IMG/VR virus record: IMGVR_UViG_3300025009_000261
Span: 1-37,189 of that record
Length of the DNA: 37,189 bases
Direction: 5' to 3' (one strand)
Origin: a virus
Shown piece by piece: positions 1,073 to 35,866 of the stretch. Position 1 is the first letter of the stretch, and each line of letters starts with the position of its first letter. Under the pieces are notes generated by a model. It had not been told where the DNA came from. It was given only the letters and a program-made list of their open reading frames with translations, and did no database searches. Position numbers and translations under genes: made by a program.

Positions 1073-4000
1073 ATGGTAATACAGCCAATTGGATCAACGA
1101 CCATAATTTCTAAAACCTCTCAAGGGAGTAGGGTGATTCAGCCTCTTGTTAGTACGAGCCAACCAATATTACAAGGACGGGAAACTCCATCTTCAACGTC
1201 AACTCCGACCCCACTTTCAGGACTTGTCAAATTATCATCATCTGTTATCAAAAAAGTCCAATCCTATTTTCAGCCGGGAGCCAGAATAAATATTCCCTCT
1301 GTGGATTTTTCAGGAATTAAGCCCGAAATTGTTCGACCAAAAACTGACTTACTTGGACCAACTCCTTCGGTAGCGGGGGCATCGGCACAATTAACTCCGC
1401 AGGCAAAAAGATTAGCAACGGGCAGAATACAAAGTTATATAGAAAAAGTAAAACCCGGACTTAAAGAAGCTGTTATGTCCCCCATTGATCCGACAATTGG
1501 ATTTTTTGGTGAGTATATTGCGGCTTTTAAGCGGGCTGAAGGAGATCAAACAGTCAAATTTGAACCCCAGACCACCAATCAGGCTATTGGAGTCGTTGCT
1601 CATAATTTTCTTAGAGACTTGACAGCGATGGAAGCTGGAGGCATTAACACTGCATTTATCAATGGTATGAAAACTTTAGACGCTGTGATTGGAGCTAGTC
1701 CCACATTAACTGCTATTAATAACATTCCGGATGCTGTTACCAAAAAGATTATGAAGGCTATCTCCCCCAAATTGGGATATCTGGAGAATTATTATGCCAA
1801 AAACAAACTCACTTTTGATGTGGTTCGTGAAGTGCAGGCAGGCCGGGGAACTCCGGAACAAATATCCGCAGTTAAAAAAGCAAATGCGCGTGGGTCACTA
1901 CCGGAAATTGTCAGAGCAAGCAGAAAAATGGGGGTGAAGGAAAATTCAAAGATTTCCGAATTTGTCAGACAACTTGTGGGTGGAGTTAAAAAAGTATTTT
2001 CCGGCGTTGGAAAAGACAGAAGTGGAGTTAAATTATTTTCGGAGATAAAACCCGGAGAAAAAGTAGACCCAAGAATTTTGGAAACCGGGAAAGCGCCGGC
2101 AGCGCCACCGACAGAAGTCGGGGGGAGACTTGCAATTCCAATGGACAAGTCAAAATACACTGGTCTCAAGACAGCCTCGGTTGTTGTTAGACCTGACGGT
2201 ACAGGTTCTATGTTTGTTGAGTTCAACAAAGAAGCGCAAGGGCAGGGACAGGGGACAGCTTTTGTAAAAGAAGCCGAGCAAAAACTTTTAGAAAAGGGAG
2301 TAAATAAAGTACAGATTCAATCTTTCAAAGAATCTTTAGGTTTTTGGGAAAAGTTAGGCTACAGAGAAACAGGAGTATCGACAGGTAGAGGGGACTTAGT
2401 AAATATGGAGAAAAGTTTAACCGTTCTCCCCCCTAGTGTTAAGCCAGTTATCCAGTCCCAAGAAGCCCCAGTTAAGCCGATAGGGGAGGGGATACCCAAA
2501 GAACTAGAATCTCTTGCCCAAGAAGCAAGGAAGTACAAGAGTGCGGAGGAGTTTGTAAAAGGAATTTCAAAAGACACTTATGCCCCAGAATATAGAAATC
2601 CTTTGGCTGATTATTACAGGAAGTCTGTTTATGAACCATTGTCACACGAGGCATATCAAAAAGGTGTTGGGTTTAGTACAAATCCAATTCAACTTGAAGG
2701 TAACTTAGATATGGTTTTGGAGAAAACCATTAGTAAAAACAAATTAGAAAATATGTCAGTTAAACAGAAGGCTGAAATGGTATTGGGTAAGAATTGGACT
2801 AAAAGGTATCTAGATTCGTTAAACAAGGGAGGAGTAATAGGTTTTGTTAAAGACTTCTACACCCAAGCTACTAAGGGAGTAGAAGCTAAACCCCAAGGCA
2901 TCGAGATGCCACCCACCGCTAAAACAGCCGTTGTAGAGGCCCCAAGCGGGATAAAGGCAGTTGAAAAAGAATTGGCTGGTGAAGTTGAAAAAAGGATCGG
3001 TGAAATTGTTCCCCCCATAGGGCTCGGTATTAAGCGGGTTTTCAAACCAGCCATAAGTGATAAGGTAATAGGCTTAAAAAAACAAGTGAAGTTTAACGAT
3101 CCAGAAATAGAAAGTCGGTACAAAAATGCAAAGGGAATAAATACACGGGGATATTATATGAAAAGAGTTAAAGATTTTGTACAAAATTTTTATCACCGGG
3201 CTACAAGAACTTATCCAGACTTGCCCAACAAACCGGAATTTGCGGAAGTGAAAATTATTCTTGGCAGAACCCAAAATGTGAGGTCAGTAGTTCAGGACAA
3301 AACCGCTAGAATCTTACAAGGTATCACCGCTGACATTGGCCCCAATAAATTAGACGTGTTTACCAGAAAAGTAATTTTGGACGATTTGGTACAGGAGGCA
3401 AAAGAAAAAAGAGCTTTGCCCTTGGGATATTCCGAATATGATGACGCCGGTAATTTAACTATCAAGGAAGAACTGTTAAATGTTGACAAGGAAAAGATTG
3501 ATAAATTGGTATTTGCAAATCCAGACATTGCGGAAGCATTGGCTCGGAGAGACAAAATGTGGAAAGCAATTACAGATGAGTTGGTCGAGTACGATATTTT
3601 GAAAGAGGAACAAGTCAAAAAAGATTACTTTAGACATCAAATTTTGGAATATGTCAATGCAAAAAGCCGTGTGACTAAAGGGGTCGGCCCAGCTCTCAAA
3701 CAGAGAAAGCCTGGTTATGCCAAACAAAGGCAGGGTTCTACTTATGATATAAATACAGACTATTTGCAAGCGGAATTTGAGGTTATGTCCCAAGCTCTGC
3801 ACGATATTGAAATAGCAAAACTTTTAAAGAGAGTCGAGAGGCTTCCAATTAACATAAAATCTGATCTAGTAAAAAAGGCCAAAGAGGGAGAAGACTGGCA
3901 CGATCTAATTCCGGAAGGATATGTAACATGGCAACCAAAAGACGGCAGAGTTTTTTATCAAGTCAACACAATTCCAGAAAGAATCGTTAATCAGTTTATT

Positions 4001-24305: not shown

Positions 24306-25211
24306 ATGTTGTCAGTGATAATTCCGAGCCGGAATTGCCAGTTTTTGACCCGTACGATTCAGGATATTTTGGAAAAAGCAGTAGACGAGATCGAGGTAAT
24401 CGTAAATATAGACGAGAATTTGCCAGATACGCGCGTAGAGGATTCAAGGGTCACATATCTTCATCCAGACGCTCCAATAGGTTTGAGGAAGGGTATTAAT
24501 GCTTGTGTAGCAGTGGCTAAGGGTAAGTACATAATGAAAACAGATGACCACTGTTTGTTTGGTCCCAAGTTTGACAGGATCCTCATAGAGGCCCATTTAG
24601 ACGACAAGTGGGTACAGATACCCCGTAGGTACTCTTTAGACGCAGAGAACTGGTGTATTAATTATTCAAGACCATACAGGGACTATATGTATATAGATTT
24701 TCCCCGGAAGGGAAAAGACCACGACGACGGTATGCATGGGGTGGAGTGGTATGGGAGACAACGAGAACGAATCGGTCCGGAGTACGACATGGATGATACA
24801 GCCTCAATGCAGGGGAGCTGTTATTTTATGGCTAAAAATCATTTTGATAACTTTTTGCATGGATTAGAAGAGTATCCAGTACCAGGAGAGGTGGGGTACG
24901 GCCAGTTTTCGCAAGAGTCACAAGAAATTGGATTCAAGACATGGTTGGGTGGAGGAGCGATGAAAGTCAACAAAAAGACCTTCTACGCTCATTTACACAA
25001 AGGTAAGACTTATGGACGGATGTACAGTATACCCAGCTGGAACGACTACACGGTCAAGGCTTCGGCTTGGAGTGCCGATTATTGGTTAAATAATAAGTGG
25101 AAGGACAGAGTACATGACTTTGAGTGGTTTGTTGATGAGAAGTTTCCAAGTATGCCGAGTTGGCCGTTAGATTGGAAGAGACAAGTAAAGGAGATGGGAT
25201 GGATACTATGA
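24306..25211 (+). CDS. Family 2-like glycosyltransferase (GT-A fold)
   Basis: A 301-aa protein. N-terminal SVIIPSRN is the nucleotide-binding strand of GT-A enzymes; MKTDDHC near residue 77-83 is the metal-binding DxD-type motif; ASMQGSCYFMAKNHF and QESQEIGFKTWLGGG form the acceptor-side region with conserved Gly and Glu. No membrane segment is seen, so it is probably cytoplasmic. It transfers a sugar from an NDP-sugar. It opens the cassette, and two later genes (26053, 31187) are paralogues by motif. The sugar and acceptor are unknown; Ser-rich virion proteins are candidate acceptors. Confidence 0.88.
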   Translation: MLSVIIPSRNCQFLTRTIQDILEKAVDEIEVIVNIDENLPDTRVEDSRVTYLHPDAPIGLRKGINACVAVAKGKYIMKTDDHCLFGPKFDRILIEAHLDDKWVQIPRRYSLDAENWCINYSRPYRDYMYIDFPRKGKDHDDGMHGVEWYGRQRERIGPEYDMDDTASMQGSCYFMAKNHFDNFLHGLEEYPVPGEVGYGQFSQESQEIGFKTWLGGGAMKVNKKTFYAHLHKGKTYGRMYSIPSWNDYTVKASAWSADYWLNNKWKDRVHDFEWFVDEKFPSMPSWPLDWKRQVKEMGWIL

Positions 25212-25866: not shown

Positions 25867-26060
25867 GTATATTTTCGACAGCGGGAATGAAAGAGTTAGT
25901 AAAGCCAAAACCTATTAAGTGTCCAGTCTGTAAAAAACTGCTTGATTGGTATATTTATGACGATCAGAAACACTATACAACGAGTCACCATTTTGTTTGG
26001 GAGAATACCGAGGCATTATTGCACCATACCTTTTATTTAATTAAACCCAGATATGTCTAG
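25863..26060 (+). CDS. Small zinc-ribbon-like protein
   Basis: A 65-aa protein with CPVC near residue 20 and a His-rich second half (KHYTTSHHFVWENTEALLHH), possibly completing a zinc site. It is coupled to the methyltransferase by ATGA and overlaps the next glycosyltransferase by 8 bp. The function is unknown. Confidence 0.5.
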   Translation: MSIFSTAGMKELVKPKPIKCPVCKKLLDWYIYDDQKHYTTSHHFVWENTEALLHHTFYLIKPRYV

Positions 26061-26940
26061 AGTAAGTATCATTATTCCCGCAAGGAATGAGAACCCAGAT
26101 AATCTTAATAGAACAATACAGAGTATTTTTGATAATGCTACTGGTGAATATGAGATTATAGTTGGGTTTGATGGTAATTATCCTTACGATCTTCCTATGA
26201 AAGTAGGAGTAGAGATAGAAGAAATTAGGTTCCCCGATGTGGTGGGTATCAAAACCAATATCAACGCCATGTGTGCTATGGCTACTGGTAAATATATCTA
26301 TAAGTCAGATGCGCATTGTTCATTCAGTAAAGGTTTTGATGAGGTTTTACAGGCAGACATGAGAGAAGACTGGATTGTCACTCCAAGATTCTATGTACTT
26401 AATGGTGAGACCTGGAAATGGCAAGATGGGAGATTCTATGACTATTTTTATTTGTGTTGTCCGTTCACTGATCCCAAAGGCTTTAGATTTAAAGCTGGTG
26501 GCCATTGGCCAGAGAGAACCCAAGAGAGGTTATTAAGTCACCTAGATATAGACGAAACTCCGCAGATACATGGATCGGGTTGGTTTATCAGCAAAGACAG
26601 ATACTTTGAGTTGGGCGGATTCCCAAACATCGATCCCTATGGTCATGCTCAAGAACCTATTTGGTTGGGACTAAAGAACTGGTTGGCCGGAGGAAAAGTC
26701 ATGGTAAACAAGAAATGCTGGTATGCGCATCTGCATCAGCAGGGTAATGAGAGGGGATATAACATGGATCACGCACAAGAAGTTAAGAGTTACGACATTG
26801 CAGCGAAGTATTGGGTTGGTGACAAATGGCACGAAAGGAAATATGACTTTAGTTGGTTTGTAGAGAAATTTGGTCCAATGCCAACATGGCCAGATAACTG
26901 GATAGAACTCTATTCAAAATGGCTAGTTGACAACCGATAA
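26053..26940 (+). CDS. Family 2-like glycosyltransferase (GT-A fold), second copy
   Basis: A 295-aa protein. VSIIIPARNE (nucleotide strand), IIVGFDGN, and KSDAHCSFSKGF (metal-binding DxH) are clear. GSGWFISKDRYFELGGF and HAQEPIWLGLKNWLAGG match the acceptor region of the 24306 enzyme, and WYAHLHQ and KYDFSWFVEKFGPMPTWP align with its C-terminus. The two genes are probably old duplicates with different specificity. Cytoplasmic enzyme; donor and acceptor unknown. Confidence 0.87.
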   Translation: MSRVSIIIPARNENPDNLNRTIQSIFDNATGEYEIIVGFDGNYPYDLPMKVGVEIEEIRFPDVVGIKTNINAMCAMATGKYIYKSDAHCSFSKGFDEVLQADMREDWIVTPRFYVLNGETWKWQDGRFYDYFYLCCPFTDPKGFRFKAGGHWPERTQERLLSHLDIDETPQIHGSGWFISKDRYFELGGFPNIDPYGHAQEPIWLGLKNWLAGGKVMVNKKCWYAHLHQQGNERGYNMDHAQEVKSYDIAAKYWVGDKWHERKYDFSWFVEKFGPMPTWPDNWIELYSKWLVDNR

Positions 26941-29837: not shown

Positions 29838-30331
29838 TTATCGGCCATGGAGATATTGCGAGTGCATTGGTAGATAGAGAAGATAAACTTTTCTTCGCCA
29901 GTGGCGTATCCAATTCCCTTGAAACCAGAGAGTCAGAATATCAAAGAGAAAAAGATCTCTTATATAAACAACATCCGGAGTTTGGTCATTTGCAACTGGT
30001 CTATTTTAGTTCTTTGGCAATCTTCTATTCTGAAACCCGATATACCCGACACAAAAAAGAAATGGAAGACCTAGTTAAACAGTGGCCATGCTATGCAATA
30101 GTGAGACTGGGAACTATCACTTGGGGCGATAACCCCAATACGATCATCAACTCTATGAAGAGTAAGGTTGCAAGGGGTGAACCTTTAGAAATAAGGGACA
30201 CGACTAGATATGTTATAGATAAGCCAGAATTTCAACACTGGGTTAGTTTAATACCCAAGTGGAATGTAGAAATGATGCTCACCGGTCAACCATATAAAGT
30301 TAGTGAAATCGTCAAAAAGTATGTCTTGTAA
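29834..30331 (+). CDS. Short NAD-dependent epimerase/reductase-like protein (SDR)
   Basis: A 165-aa protein that begins with TTG in a TTGA overlap. The N-terminus [13 protein letters not shown] is a Rossmann-type glycine motif. [10 protein letters not shown] and [11 protein letters not shown] give the Ser and the Tyr-x-x-x-Lys pair of extended SDR sugar enzymes, followed by [13 protein letters not shown]. About half of the usual 300 residues is present, so it is a reduced version. It probably converts an NDP-sugar used by the glycosyltransferases. Activity needs testing because the fold is trimmed. Confidence 0.6.
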
Positions 30332-31199
30332 CCTTTCAATTTTTGCCAAGCGGGTGTTTCTAAACATAAATCCCGGTCAGGATTTTGATCCCGCCAGAAA
30401 ACTTAAAGATGGCAAGGGCCATTTAATGCGTGTCTCATCCATGATCCGAGGGGATCAGATCGCCGACAAACTTGGGGCCAAACTTAATCCCACAAGCGGA
30501 TATGAGAATGACGTTTGTGTTTACGTCAAGCCCATGGTCAGAAAAGGTGACGACTTTAAGTTTGAAGGTAAAAAAGCATACATAGATATAATTGACGGCC
30601 ATAATCTCGGACAGTTGGCAGAAAAACATCCAGAGGTAGACGTGATTGTTTGTTCACGAGCCGATTTTGAAACCATGTCCAAGGTAATATCCAACAGAAT
30701 AGTTGTAATTCCGCAGCATCACTGTAATTTTGAGCGTGTTAAAAAAACTAGAACCGAGGTAACGACAGTTGGCGTTATTGGAACGTCTAAAGCCTTCGCG
30801 TATTTGCCAGAAGGATTAAAAGGAGAGTTAATTAAGAGGGGTATGAATCTTATTGAGTATTCTCGCTTCTTTTCTCGGCAAGACATTGTAGATTTCTACC
30901 AGAAGATAGATGTGCAGATAGTTTGGAGGCCATATAAGAAACTATTGTCTAATCCTCTTAAAATAGTCAATGCTATGTCCTTCGGGATTCCCACCATTGC
31001 CCTTGATGAGTTGGCTTTTCGGGAAGTGGGTGGTTGTTATGACCCGGTACATACTTTGGAAGAATTTTTAGACCGTTTGGATGTTATTAGATTGGACTCG
31101 GCTGTTTATGCTGATTACTCGGTCATGTGTTTGGCGGGGGCTGAAAAATATCACATAGACAATATAGCTAAACTTTATAAAAATTTATGTACGATTTAA
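30321..31199 (+). CDS. GT-B type glycosyltransferase (family 4-like)
   Basis: A 292-aa protein from the ATG at 30321 (a GTG at 30303 is possible). The C-terminal half has the donor-binding signature of GT4-like enzymes, NPLKIVNAMSFGIPTIALDE with the downstream REVGG, after a Rossmann-like VTTVGVIGTSKAFAYLPEG. The N-terminal half is shorter than in full GT4 enzymes. It belongs to a different fold class from the three GT-A enzymes here, so at least two kinds of linkage can be made. It overlaps both neighbours by 11-13 bp. Confidence 0.75.
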   Translation: MSCNLSIFAKRVFLNINPGQDFDPARKLKDGKGHLMRVSSMIRGDQIADKLGAKLNPTSGYENDVCVYVKPMVRKGDDFKFEGKKAYIDIIDGHNLGQLAEKHPEVDVIVCSRADFETMSKVISNRIVVIPQHHCNFERVKKTRTEVTTVGVIGTSKAFAYLPEGLKGELIKRGMNLIEYSRFFSRQDIVDFYQKIDVQIVWRPYKKLLSNPLKIVNAMSFGIPTIALDELAFREVGGCYDPVHTLEEFLDRLDVIRLDSAVYADYSVMCLAGAEKYHIDNIAKLYKNLCTI

Positions 31200-33481
31200 G
31201 TGTAATTATCCCCGGGAAAAATGAGGAATTTATTGGAGTGACAGCTGGTGATGTTCTGCAAAACATTGAGGGAAACACACAAATAGTTGTAGTTTTAGAT
31301 GGATTTGAGACTTCTATACCAGATATTTCAAATGACTCCAGAGTGAAAGTTTTAAAGTTTGATGCTTCTCTAGGTCAGCGTGCTGCCACTAATCGTGGAG
31401 TAGATGCAAGTGATGCCAAGTATGTGATGAAATTAGATGCCCACTGTGCGGTAGACAAGGGGTTTGATGTAAAAATGCTTGGGGCATTTAAGGAAATCGG
31501 AGATGACGTGACCATGATCCCGACTCTTTATAACCTCCATGCTTTTAACTGGCGGTGTAAAAAGTGTGGAAAAGAATGGTACCAAGGCTTAATACCGGAA
31601 CATTGTAAAGTGGAAGAGAATAAGCAGCAAATAAATAATCTGAATTGCGACAATATGACTGATTTTGAGAAAGTCATCGTGTGGAAGCCCAGATTGAACC
31701 GTAAAAGCGAGTTTTACCGTTTTGATACCACACTACATTTTCAATATGCGGGAGTATTCAAAAGTAGACCAGAAATAATGAGAGGTATATTGTTGGGGTA
31801 TGAATTATCTCTTGATCCTCAATTTGTATCTCCTGGCGTCATAGGTCTTTTTGCAAACCTTACAAGTTCTCATCCTTTTTTTATTAACACCGACTATTCT
31901 GGATGGGGGAAGGACATGGCCGTTAATGCAGTGTGTTTTTCGCCTATTAACAATGGCGGGGGCGTTAGAGCGGTTGAGATTTTCACCATCGGAGACAAGT
32001 TCAAGATGCAGGGGATTACAACAGGATCGGTTTTTACAAAGATGGTCAATGACGGGGATATCTTTTCCTCTCCCTCTGGGAATTTTACTAAACAGCCAAG
32101 CATAGATAAAGCGGTGGGCCATGTGAGTTTCTCCAAAATAGACGATATATCCATAACCAAACTTATCAATTCCGCCGATCCAGTTCCAACACCCAGTAGT
32201 TCTATCAACATTAATGTTGTTGAAGAATTTAACAACATATTTGGCGGGAGGTTTATTTACAATGAAAAATCGGGAAGTCTCCATAATGGAAGTGTACTAC
32301 TTACCCCAATTTATTGCAATGACTTTGTAGAAACGATGTCCATTCAAGGATCATGTTTTATGTGTACCAAGCAAAAGTACAATGAATTAAACTTGTGTGA
32401 CGAAACGTGGGGAAGTTGGGGCAATCAGGGAACTGAAGTGGCGTGTAAGACTTGGCTATCTGGCGGACGAGTGGTTACCAATCGTAGGACTTGGTACTCG
32501 CATATGTTTAGAACCCAAGGCGGGAGTTTTGGTTTTCCTTATCATCAGTCAGGAAATGAAGTAGAACGGGCCAGAAAAGCCTCACGGGATTTATTCTTAA
32601 ATAATAAATGGGAGAAGCAGATTTATCCTCTGTCTTGGTTGGTCGAGAAGTTTAAGCCCGTGCCGATTTGGCACGATCCAGAAGGAAAGGATATGTTAGA
32701 TTTTGTGAATAAGAAAGGTAAACAGTTTTATATGCAAAAGTCAGGGCAGTTCACCAAAGAAATAATTTTTTATACAGATAACCAACTCGACCTAAAAGTA
32801 GCGGAGCCAGTCAGGAATGTCTTGAAAAAGATAAGTAGGGAGAAGGGGATACCGATTGTCTGTTCCTCTCTCAAAAGGATGGACTTCGGGGATACAAACA
32901 TACACTTTCCTTCAATGAAACGTGGGTACTTGGCAATGTTCAAACAGATTTTGGGAGCGTTGGAGAATAGTACCGCTGACATTATTTTTTTTGCGGAGCA
33001 TGACGTTTTGTATCACCCATCCCATTTCGACTTTACCCCCCCAGACAAGAACACCTATTACTATAATCAGAACGTGTGGTTTTTGAGGATGCCGGATGGT
33101 CACGCTCTACATTATGACGTTAATCAATTATCGGGACTTTGTGCGTATCGTGATGTATTGATTACGCATTTTAGAGAACGGTATGAGATGGTTAAACAAG
33201 AATTTGATAAAGGATTCCCAGAAGCAGACTTTGTTAAATTCGTACGCAATATCGGTTTTGAACCCATGACTCACAACCGGATTCAATGGAAGAACTGGTT
33301 TAAGTATGAAACATGGAAGTCTGAATATCCGAATGTAGATATTAAACATGGGGCTAATGCTACTGGCCAGAGGTGGAATAAGGATCAATATAGAAACCAG
33401 CAACTTTTAGTAAATTGGACTGAATCGGAAGAGATACCGGGGTGGGGTAGGGGAATTGATGTTGTGAGTACGCTTCAGTAG
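31187..33481 (+). CDS. Two-domain glycosyltransferase, frame continuing through an antisense HNH gene
   Basis: A 764-aa open frame. Domain 1 (about 1-205 plus 380-515) is a family 2 GT-A enzyme: LSVIIPGKNEE, MKLDAHCAVDKG (DxH), a zinc-like CKKCGKEWY, FYRFDTTLHFQYAG, and then, after the insert, ETMSIQGSCFMCTKQKY and QGTEVACKTWLSGGRV. Domain 2 (about 530-764) holds ADIIFFAEHDVLYHP and looks like another GT-A-type domain. Residues about 207-366 correspond exactly to the antisense HNH gene at 31805-32284 and do not resemble glycosyltransferase sequence. Whether the product tolerates this insert is unknown. Confidence 0.8.
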   Translation: MYDLSVIIPGKNEEFIGVTAGDVLQNIEGNTQIVVVLDGFETSIPDISNDSRVKVLKFDASLGQRAATNRGVDASDAKYVMKLDAHCAVDKGFDVKMLGAFKEIGDDVTMIPTLYNLHAFNWRCKKCGKEWYQGLIPEHCKVEENKQQINNLNCDNMTDFEKVIVWKPRLNRKSEFYRFDTTLHFQYAGVFKSRPEIMRGILLGYELSLDPQFVSPGVIGLFANLTSSHPFFINTDYSGWGKDMAVNAVCFSPINNGGGVRAVEIFTIGDKFKMQGITTGSVFTKMVNDGDIFSSPSGNFTKQPSIDKAVGHVSFSKIDDISITKLINSADPVPTPSSSININVVEEFNNIFGGRFIYNEKSGSLHNGSVLLTPIYCNDFVETMSIQGSCFMCTKQKYNELNLCDETWGSWGNQGTEVACKTWLSGGRVVTNRRTWYSHMFRTQGGSFGFPYHQSGNEVERARKASRDLFLNNKWEKQIYPLSWLVEKFKPVPIWHDPEGKDMLDFVNKKGKQFYMQKSGQFTKEIIFYTDNQLDLKVAEPVRNVLKKISREKGIPIVCSSLKRMDFGDTNIHFPSMKRGYLAMFKQILGALENSTADIIFFAEHDVLYHPSHFDFTPPDKNTYYYNQNVWFLRMPDGHALHYDVNQLSGLCAYRDVLITHFRERYEMVKQEFDKGFPEADFVKFVRNIGFEPMTHNRIQWKNWFKYETWKSEYPNVDIKHGANATGQRWNKDQYRNQQLLVNWTESEEIPGWGRGIDVVSTLQ
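31805..32284 (-). CDS. HNH endonuclease nested antisense within the glycosyltransferase gene
   Basis: A 159-aa protein with unmistakable HNH features: GCWNWIGGIDKFGYGYIVYF, AHRFIYAWL, the core DHLCKNRSCCNPLHLE, DGENLNRSN, and a C-terminal zinc ribbon (CINGH and CKVCKK). Codons are exactly aligned with those of the plus-strand frame, so sense stops would need TTA, CTA or TCA codons here, and none occur. A promoter-like TTGCAA, 17 bp, TACACT lies upstream (32319-32291, minus strand), ending 6 nt before the ATG. It is a mobile gene inserted in reverse. Confidence 0.88.
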   Translation of the reverse strand: METSRFFIVNKPPAKYVVKFFNNINVDRTTGCWNWIGGIDKFGYGYIVYFGETHMAHRFIYAWLFSKIPRGRGKDIPVIDHLCKNRSCCNPLHLELVSDGENLNRSNAPAIVNRRKTHCINGHVLPPSRIVGVNKKRMRTCKVCKKTYDARRYKLRIKR

Positions 33482-33487
33482 TTAAAA

Positions 33488-33517
33488 TTGCCTCCAGATA
33501 GTTTTGTTGGTTAATCT
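33488..33517 (+). promoter_or_regulatory. Late promoter candidate before second Ser-rich gene
   Basis: TTGCCT, an 18-bp spacer with GATAGTT at positions 10-16, and TAATCT, ending exactly 6 nt before the ATG at 33524. No Shine-Dalgarno is present. It is closely similar to the element at 35868. Confidence 0.65.
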
Positions 33518-33523
33518 TTCAGT

Positions 33524-35866
33524 ATGATAAATCCAGATAGCCCCTATGTATTTGGCCCGCAGTTTTTTGAACAACACCAAGAAAAGTTATTGCGGCTAGC
33601 CAATAATCCAATCGGTAGATGGATCCTTCGTATACATGGAAAAAGAAGCAGTGTAGGCAAAAATAGAATTACAAAAATTCTTCCCAATGCTATTTTTTGG
33701 GATGGTGAAAAAGAAGGACAAGTCGTTGCTGAATTTCGTGTCAAAAATAAATTCTCTAACCGCATCTATTACGCTTTTTATCCTATTTGGTTTCTGATGC
33801 ACGGATGGGATATAAATGTAGCTAATCCACTTCGGGATCTGCTAATTCCAATTTCTCCAGTCGTACCAAATTGGAATCTGGGGTTTGACACTTTAACTGT
33901 TTACCCTGATCCGGTTCCTACATATTCGGATGACTCTATCTATTTTTATGATCCGACATATTTAACAGCAAGAAACGCAGCCACAGGAACTCGCCGTGGG
34001 GGAATATCCATGTATGTCCAGGCCACCTGGACTTCCCCCAATTATTTTATAGAGGGATTATTTATTAACTGGGACACATCGGACTTGGGAGCTAGTGCCG
34101 TTATCAGTGCAGCCACCGCTAGTCCCTGGGTTATTGCTAAAACTGTCACAGATGCCAGTTTTAACGCCAGGCTATACAACTCTACCGCCAGTAATCCGCT
34201 TATAGACGGTGACTTCGATCAAAGGGGGTCTACGGAACAGTCAAACACTAATTTTAGCACTTCTACCGTTACCACAGGAGCTTACAATGACTATCCCCTA
34301 AATGCCACAGGAATTTCTAATATTTCTCTAACTGGAATAACGAAATTTTGTTTAAGGGATCAATTTTACGATACAGCGTCAAACGTACCAACGGGTACGA
34401 ATTATTTTGAGGTGGCCACATCTCGTACGGCAGGTACGACAAATGACCCCAAATTAGTGGTTACTTATACTCTAAGTTCAGCATCAGCATCAGCCAGTTT
34501 GTCTCCTTCGGCGTCTTTGTCTCCCAGTGCATCCGCGTCTGCCTCTCTTTCTCCATCAGCAAGTGCTAGTGCATCCTTATCTCCAAGTGCCTCATTATCA
34601 CCTAGCGCTTCAGCTAGTGCATCATTAAGTCCGTCAGCCAGTGCCAGTGCAAGTCTAAGTCCTTCGGCCTCACTTAGCCCAAGTGCCTCCGCTTCTGCAT
34701 CCTTGTCACCATCGGCTTCAGCTAGTGCATCATTAAGTCCCTCTGCTTCATTATCACCGTCTGCCTCTGCTTCACCATCAATCCCCGGCTCTGCCAGTTT
34801 ATCGCCAAGCGCAAGTTTATCCCCATCAGCCAGCGCGTCTGCTTCCCTTTCACCCAGTGCCTCCGCTTCTGCATCCCTGTCTCCTTCGGCCTCTGCTTCA
34901 GCCTCTTTGAGTCCTTCGGCTTCGTTATCTCCCAGCGCCAGTGCATCGGCTTCGCTTAGCCCTTCAGCCTCCGCATCTAAATCTCTAAGTCCATCCGCCT
35001 CGCTTAGTCCTTCTGCATCGGCTTCAGCTTCTTTATCACCTTCGGCTAGTGTATCCGCATCGTTGTCACCTTCAGCCAGCTTGAGTCCCAGTGCATCAGC
35101 GTCAGCCTCCCTGTCTCCCTCTGCTTCTGCAAGTAGAAGTTTGAGTCCTTCAGCCTCCCTTAGCCCATCGGCATCAGCCAGTGCTTCATTAAGCCCATCA
35201 GCATCATTAAGTCCATCAGCTTCGGCTTCGGCGTCTATTTCCCCCTCGGCTTCGGCATCGGCTTCAGTTTCCTTCAGTGTTAGTCCTTCCCCCAGCACGG
35301 GATATTCAGATTACAGCCGGGGAGATTACGTTACCCTTCCAACAAACGATGATGATTTGGAAACCTTATACTCCGCTCAAGAAGAATTAGACGTGGCCTC
35401 CAACGATGATGCTGGGGTGGGTCAAGCCGGCACCTCTCAATACTTAGTTCATCAATACAAAAGTTTTGTGGGTCAAAGAACCTATGCGGATATTAAAGTT
35501 GAGTTACAATCAACTTTTGCTGGCACATCGTCTACGATTTATTTGCAAATCTACAATAGGACCACTTCAACTTGGACAACTATTGACTCTAACAGTTTCG
35601 CTACTGCCAGTACAGATTTTGAATTTAATTACTCCTTGCCTAGTCTAACTGATTACAAAGATTCTCGGAATGTTATCTCGGTAAGGGTTTATCAACTGGC
35701 TGATGCCAGTAGCCGAACTTTATCGATTGATTTATATGAGGTGTGTTTCCCCCTTGTGTATGCAAACAAATATTCCGCTCAATCAAATACTTATATAGAC
35801 AAATATTCCGCTCAATCAAATACTTATGTGGATAAATACTCAAAAGTTTGTGTCAGCGATAATTAA
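33524..35866 (+). CDS. Virion fibre protein with Ser/Ala/Pro repeat stalk (SPS2)
   Basis: A 780-aa protein in four parts. Residues 1-95 form a virion-attachment-like domain ([20 protein letters not shown]). Residues about 100-315 are a beta-rich domain ending in [10 protein letters not shown], like DNRLRE/carbohydrate-binding modules. Residues about 317-589 are degenerate [11 protein letters not shown] repeats. The last about 190 residues are another beta domain ([20 protein letters not shown]) ending in KYSAQSNTY repeats. The overall plan is a tail or head fibre with a flexible, possibly glycosylated stalk. It directly follows the glycan cassette with its own promoter. The role is inferred. 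Confidence 0.75.
34476..35292 (+). repeat. Low-complexity Ser-Pro-Ser-Ala-Ser coding repeat 2
   Basis: About 272 codons of [11 protein letters not shown] units with occasional Lys, Arg, Val, Gly and Ile. Serine codons are mixed, reducing exact DNA repetition. A long frame on the opposite strand is a by-product of this composition. Confidence 0.9.
35768..35829 (+). repeat. 33-bp tandem repeat at SPS2 C-terminus
   Basis: Two copies with period 33 start at 35768 and 35801 and encode KYSAQSNTY units followed by a partial third (DKYSK). The first 29 bases of each copy are identical, so the duplication is recent compared with the diverged SPSAS repeats. Confidence 0.85.

Follow-up and report, generated by a model that had tools for sequence, protein, structure and literature searches.

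An HNH endonuclease gene inserted antisense and codon-aligned into a phage glycosyltransferase gene whose reading frame remains open

How an endonuclease gene can lie on the opposite strand inside the coding sequence of another gene without truncating it is the question raised by one locus of a 37,189-base virus record (IMGVR_UViG_3300025009_000261, from one metagenomic assembly), the whole of which is called here the window. Homing genes located in coding sequences are usually thought to be made safe by riding in introns or inteins. In the window, the frame of a GT2 glycosyltransferase (31187-33481, plus strand; PF00535, E 7e-12, residues 5-111) stays open for 764 codons and reads through an HNH gene that is encoded on the minus strand (32284-31805, 159 amino acids plus the stop codon), and the codon boundaries of the two frames coincide (offset 0). 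The HNH gene contains 8 leucine and 6 serine codons, none of which is TTA, CTA or TCA, the three codons that are designated antisense-stop codons in this work. An earlier sequence-only reading of this DNA had described the HNH gene, the frame that passes through it, the shared codon boundaries and the avoidance of these codons, and each of these observations was reproduced.

The HNH protein matches PF13392 (HNH_3) with an E-value of 5e-7 and 29.7 bits, above the curated cut-off of 24.8, and its His, Asn and Cys positions are conserved in an alignment of 12. Its structural model reached a pLDDT of 81; the fold search carried out with this model gave no match at E 0.001 or better, the best ones being weak matches to I-PpoI (E 2.4e-3). 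Two weak relatives of this HNH were found among genome contigs, and one pattern search led to a single contig. The analysis of the region 31500-32700 revealed 2 promoter-like sites compared with 2.8 expected, which is not above chance. By sequence, the leader of the HNH gene corresponds to 32285-32311 (minus strand), within the insert, and no clear ribosome-binding site was found there on inspection by eye.

The HNH gene is confirmed as an insertion into the glycosyltransferase gene, the frame of which was not truncated. A close relative (contig L001) carries an empty allele that encodes a glycosyltransferase of 585 amino acids, with 91% amino acid identity and about 85% DNA identity to the window where they are alignable. 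The motifs HFQY and ETMS are separated by 15 residues in this relative but by 194 in the window, whose net gain of 179 codons agrees with the insertion of about 180 codons anticipated between two nearly adjacent motifs. The loop comparison, which took in the best 80 of the 341 relatives of the glycosyltransferase, included 87 loci from 81 distinct contigs, six of which were represented twice. The HFQY-ETMS loop was of 13 to 26 residues in all 87 loci. The insert of the window was found in none of the 81 homologous contigs (the best 80 of 341 relatives included), nor did any of them show the same 180 residues in a glycosyltransferase lacking the HNH match, a control proposed by the sequence-only reading. 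Searches at both the DNA and the protein level gave no match to this glycosyltransferase among phage records.

Eight of the 87 loci have 25 or 26 residues in this loop, such as YSEYSKRPEVQKGIEINGVYNKDLR in L045, whose loop resembles that of the window on both flanks (RPEIMRGILLG before and YCNDFV after). Since homologues with the same type of loop have 25 residues at this position, the insert proper is nearer to 170 codons than to 179, and homology to these long loops places its edges at about 31799-32311, uncertain by a few codons and inside the span 31775-32330 initially suggested. Thus defined, the insert consists of the HNH gene, 6 nt past its stop codon and 27 nt ahead of its start, with only about 33 nt located outside the HNH ORF. 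The glycosyltransferase part upstream of the insert (31187-31798, plus strand) is alignable to L001 and to other homologues and ends in the motif RPEIMRGILLG, as in the long-loop homologues, and the downstream part (32312-33481, plus strand) is alignable to L001 from the motif ETMSIQGSC. This insert is known as a single metagenomic copy, and relatives of its HNH occupy another place in the same glycosyltransferase family.

Outside the insert, the dN/dS values against L001 are 0.16 on the left (first 558 nt) and 0.041 on the right (from 32330); much of the divergence from L001 may predate the insertion, so these values indicate that the gene family is constrained, without bearing on the time after the insertion. 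The dS against L001 was 0.31 to the left of the insert (31187-31746), 1.22 to the right (32325-33481) and 1.21 in the upstream gene, as if the start of the glycosyltransferase gene had been recently exchanged. In the AlphaFold model of the 764-residue protein (48 sequences), most pLDDT values outside the insert are close to or above 90, whereas those of residues 202-361 and 364-373, corresponding to about 31790-32305, are below 50; low values are to be expected within the insert because aligned relatives are missing. In a Foldseek search the model was similar to GalNAc-transferases (E 3.9e-11), the TM-scores being modest (0.27 and 0.42). Judging from the sequence alignment, the insert immediately precedes a stretch that aligns with the segment TPMIAGG of GalNAc-T2.

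Other genes around this enzyme deserve description. Two more glycosyltransferase-like genes (24306-25211 and 26053-26940, plus strand) match both halves of the 31187-33481 enzyme, and the next gene downstream (33524-35866, plus strand) encodes a 780-amino acid protein with a long serine-alanine-proline repeat, similar repeats being present downstream of the glycosyltransferase of contig L002. In the phage with the empty allele, a different HNH gene is located immediately upstream in the same operon (L001, 2719-3147, plus strand), and sense-oriented HNHs similar to it were found near this glycosyltransferase in several contigs (for example L002, L043, L051 and L078).

With the codon usage of the phage, the chance that the aligned antisense frame of the window HNH is open was 0.018 by analytical calculation and 0.019 by resampling, and with the local codon usage it was 0.0115, so that the rough figure of a few percent previously given was about right, if slightly high. 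Among 435 overlapping segments of 159 codons taken from 23 stretches of the phage's own genes, 2 were equally open. Antisense-stop codons (at least one) are present in 18 of 20 relatives of the window HNH, and a long codon-aligned antisense frame in none of these 20; in L022, a non-aligned antisense frame covers part of the HNH gene.

Within the surveyed HNH genes, the best matches to the window HNH belong to L008 (48.9% over 137 amino acids) and L047 (46.5% over 129 amino acids), each lying in antisense orientation where a gene from the same glycosyltransferase family begins. The L008 HNH, with 2 antisense-stop codons versus 6.3 expected, occupies the gap between the glycosyltransferase and a putative nucleotide-sugar dehydrogenase gene upstream of it. 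In L047, a remnant of the beginning of the glycosyltransferase gene (MAMAYKISILIPSR) continues into a frame on the plus strand (2412-3005). This frame is uninterrupted across the entire HNH antisense (2457-2999), with 0 antisense-stop codons versus 7.6 expected, and ends just past the ATG (2977 or 2992) that serves as the new start of the glycosyltransferase. The coexistence of this remnant and the new start indicates that the target is partly repeated. The HNH of L235 (the same HNH as in L120; GC 0.29) is antisense between two genes and has 0 antisense-stop codons versus 12.9 expected, the end of its antisense frame overlapping the probable start of the following gene.

A survey of antisense-stop codons has been carried out with 461 sequences (3.9 Mb, the window included, some of them overlapping), in which genes were called automatically (ORFs of 80 codons or more, with priority to the longest) and the expectation was derived from the neighbouring genes. 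In the first survey (80 of 120 loci), 12 of the 80 HNH genes lacked antisense-stop codons, 11 of these 12 having a GC content above 0.5, and none of the 12 was nested as in the window; the remaining one, the AT-rich L120, prompted the inspection of junction cases. L147, L165 and L169 were omitted from an early step because the neighbouring sequence was too short. In the complete set, 428 HNH ORFs were reduced to 406 after dropping those with repeated cores or with neighbours containing too few leucine and serine codons. Outside the antisense/sense comparison remained 93 HNH genes with missing or distant neighbours (ratio 1.16) and 89 flanked by genes of different strands (ratio 1.34).

The 49 HNH genes with both neighbours on the opposite strand (antisense) contain 131 antisense-stop codons versus 161.5 expected, and the 175 flanked on either side by genes of their own strand (sense) contain 915 versus 707.1 expected (1.29-fold). 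Genes free of antisense-stop codons were 13 in the antisense class (6.2 expected) and 11 in the sense class (19.4 expected). Control codons ending in A (Val, Ala, Thr, Pro and Gly) showed no depletion, with 1.27-fold the expected number in antisense and 1.24-fold in sense HNHs. The permutation analysis of all antisense against sense HNH genes gave a ratio of 0.63 (P 5e-5), and with 60% clusters and without L235 (45 antisense versus 160 sense genes) the ratio was 0.73 (P 7e-4); the cluster mates of L235 (L278, L388 and L149), all below expectation, were also excluded from this clustered test.

With gaps shorter than 60 bp (25 antisense versus 73 sense genes), observed/expected values were 0.75 and 1.25, respectively (ratio 0.60, permutation P 3.5e-4), and with wider gaps they were 1.24 and 1.33. 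The 60 bp limit for tight junctions was chosen by us; a limit of 100 bp yields 0.78 versus 1.25 (rank P 0.004). Rank tests gave P 0.004 overall, 0.005 in tight and 0.17 in loose junctions and, according to GC content, P 0.0066 below 0.5 and 0.086 at 0.5 or more. For the 25 tight antisense cases, P was 0.009 when the three strongest were removed and 0.049 when five were removed. The two remaining antisense frames showed no shortage of stops, so the depletion is confined to the aligned frame. It originates from CTA, TCA and codon-box choice; TTA within TTA+TTG was hardly lower (1.17 in antisense versus 1.26 in sense genes at tight junctions).

Because part of the loci had prompted the idea, the test was rerun on other loci, excluding those that had formed the idea and the clusters of the earlier antisense genes. 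With these new loci (35 antisense versus 127 sense genes) the ratio was 0.70 (P 3.5e-4); at tight junctions (20 versus 60 genes) the values were 0.77 in antisense and 1.26 in sense genes (P 4.5e-4, or 0.0023 without L047), and at loose gaps P was 0.18. Non-HNH antisense genes in tight junctions displayed no depletion (0.94-0.96), although this control is thin, with 2 genes at GC below 0.45 and 11 at 0.45-0.55, and none of 311 non-HNH sense genes at GC below 0.45 lacked all three codons. Counter-cases include antisense HNHs with an excess of antisense-stop codons, such as that of L323, with 7 versus 1.2 expected. The sense HNH of L036 (824-1289, plus strand, GC 0.39), also a counter-case, has 0 versus 2.7 expected. 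The long aligned antisense frames of L205 and L406 were taken as chance, considering that their GC content is 0.66-0.70 and that the genes beside them share the strand of the HNH.

Taken as a whole, the survey suggests that antisense HNHs in tight operon junctions are depleted of antisense-stop codons, with a moderate effect that leans on few genes. Avoidance of TTA, CTA and TCA throughout the HNH family is rejected on account of the 18 of 20 relatives that carry one of them and of the excess in the sense-flanked class. The sequence-only reading had envisaged a homing gene that avoids these codons and can thereby invade genes without truncating them, and had advised the search for antisense stops in HNH homologues; the insertion and the intact frame were upheld, the general avoidance was contradicted by that same search, and what remains is an avoidance conditional on tight antisense junctions.

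Hidden HNH genes were also located in phage methylases. A 774-amino acid methyltransferase in L141 (PF01555, E 3.4e-27) holds an antisense HNH (PF13392, E 9e-10), and its relatives have 416, 437 and 487 amino acids in three mycobacteriophages, 529 in KBurrousTX and 691 in Filuzino, which has an insert of its own. In phage MKC-IRE-02, an antisense HNH lies inside a methyltransferase in the same register as in L141. The same-strand HNH of Filuzino has matches of 84-99% in nine other mycobacteriophages, at places that bear a methylase or methyltransferase annotation, or in one record a hypothetical one, and this same-strand mycobacteriophage methylase element is the ShiLan domain. The frames themselves were inspected in Filuzino, Mantra and Cr-LKS3. 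By synonymous resampling, the chance of an open host frame was 0.15 and 0.033 for L141, 0.049 for MKC-IRE-02, 0.024 for Filuzino, 0.058 for Mantra and 0.016 for Cr-LKS3; these methylase cases were found via the open frame and are therefore not independent proofs. A second hidden ORF of L141 (2782-3333, minus strand), on the methyltransferase's own strand, displays a zinc-finger and an HNH-like motif; it gave no Pfam match and two uninformative phage matches, so the label HNH-like is a reading of the motif. In the methylase of the cyanophage Cr-LKS3 of Cylindrospermopsis (L466, 1977-3827, plus strand), a same-strand hidden HNH shows 49% identity to the ShiLan-type HNH of Filuzino.

The frame-preserving insertion of a hidden HNH is already known from the ShiLan domain, and what is new here is the antisense, codon-aligned form and the new host gene. 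In the accessible part of its description, the ShiLan domain is a hidden out-of-frame HNH in the mycobacteriophage DNA methylase gp65, in a methylase frame without stops and, according to the authors, without signs of an intron or intein; Pacc40 gp60 provides a second case (PMC11855218, Genes 2025). The term also appears in PMC9957025, and an out-of-frame HNH within a methylase is mentioned in a genome note (PMC12613952), as far as the accessible parts of both go. From the accessible text of PMC11855218, both systems have in common that the HNH gene fills the insert, the host frame is stop-free, no intron or intein was found and the predicted loop is disordered. The ShiLan domain shows a scattered distribution; the window insert was found in one copy, with relatives of its HNH at another place of the gene family. 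The ShiLan domain has its HNH on the host's strand in a methylase, whereas the window HNH is antisense and codon-aligned, in a glycosyltransferase and with another sequence. The broad traits of the ShiLan type were found in the window (insert absent in homologues, HNH in a non-host frame with a stop-free host frame, no intron detected), and its identification as the ShiLan domain itself is rejected because of the antisense orientation and the glycosyltransferase host. The words antisense, reverse, opposite and complement are absent from the accessible text of PMC11855218, and a selection test was not found in it.

Two other systems are comparable, according to the portions available of their descriptions. 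The seg genes of T4, which are free-standing homing endonucleases, are also compact endonuclease genes without an intron, and segD is the only T4 homing gene opposite to its neighbours, but they are described between genes and the window HNH lies inside an open coding frame (PMC2988022). The split cox2 of Campsomeris mitochondria shares with the window an in-frame insert, ORFs that overlap in antiparallel orientation and a putative nuclease resembling HNH enzymes, but it is mitochondrial, yields two separate mRNAs and proteins and contains several ORFs in the insert (PMC5374615). No published description of an antisense HNH kept open in the host frame was found in titles and abstract openings, a search with most subscription journals outside its coverage.

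The open frame could simply be the result of luck, a recent insertion whose antisense frame happens to be open (about 1-2%), with no antisense selection and with an enlarged enzyme that may be dead. The calculated chance (0.0115-0.019) in combination with the many HNH insertions sampled, the fact that the case was noticed because its frame is open and the absence of a second allele for a constraint test favour this explanation; nevertheless, the junction relatives L047 and L235 are open far beyond chance (0 versus 7.6 and 12.9 expected) and the tight antisense depletion recurs on new loci, and luck is considered unlikely. Production of the glycosyltransferase as two pieces that are then assembled is very unlikely: phage enzymes in pieces after the insertion of a homing gene are known and an in-frame ATG is present after the insert, at ETMS, but the frame has no stop and the break would lie within the GalNAc-transferase-like domain. 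Removal of the insert as a self-splicing intron or intein, elements in which homing genes often ride, appears extremely improbable, as Rfam gave no match in 30000-34000 at E up to 1, the insert has only about 33 nt outside the HNH ORF, Pfam revealed no intein domain in the 764-amino acid frame and the junction as placed does not display, by eye, the usual terminal Asn and following Cys, Ser or Thr.

The preferred reading, with a probability of about 0.7, is that of a compact mobile HNH homing gene placed in reverse orientation in a glycosyltransferase loop and tolerated through the read-through of its antisense strand by host ribosomes. It is preferred because of the empty allele, the lack of the insert in the 81 contigs (including the best 80 of 341 relatives), the presence of the L008 and L047 HNHs at the same glycosyltransferase family, the depletion at tight junctions, the recurrence in methylases, the confident model of the enzyme on both sides of the insert and the lack of an Rfam match. 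Counted against it were the absence of a promoter above chance and, by eye, of a clear ribosome-binding site, the single copy of the insert, the moderate depletion, the counter-cases L323 and L036 and the fact that the relatives do not generally avoid these codons.

According to the homing gene reading, the HNH enzyme would cut glycosyltransferase genes that lack the insert, and repair would copy the insert into them. Host ribosomes would pass through the insert and produce a 764-amino acid enzyme in which about 170 residues form a floppy loop and which may still work well enough. HNH alleles whose antisense strand halts host translation would be lost, and selection would in this way hold one antisense frame open; the same selection could act on an HNH that is antisense between two operon genes, where the antisense frame would carry ribosomes to the next start. 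That selection keeps antisense HNHs in phage genes and operons stop-free in one antisense frame for host ribosomes to cross, either fused into the host protein (the window, MKC-IRE-02 and L141) or as an ORF coupled to the next start (L047 and L235), is a proposal with even odds. For the proposed class of ribosome-transparent antisense homing genes, depletion was found in antisense and not in sense genes, with a moderate effect.

These results go beyond the work on the ShiLan domain in the antisense form, the new host gene, the empty allele of the closely related L001 and a test across the survey that suggests constraint on the opposite strand. The antisense HNH of MKC-IRE-02, unlabelled beneath a methyltransferase annotation, is a warning to annotators; where a phage enzyme shows an extended disordered region, a second gene hidden there may be responsible. 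If selection does act on the antisense strand of such HNHs, homing genes would have a third way, beside introns and inteins, of residing without harm in expressed sequence.
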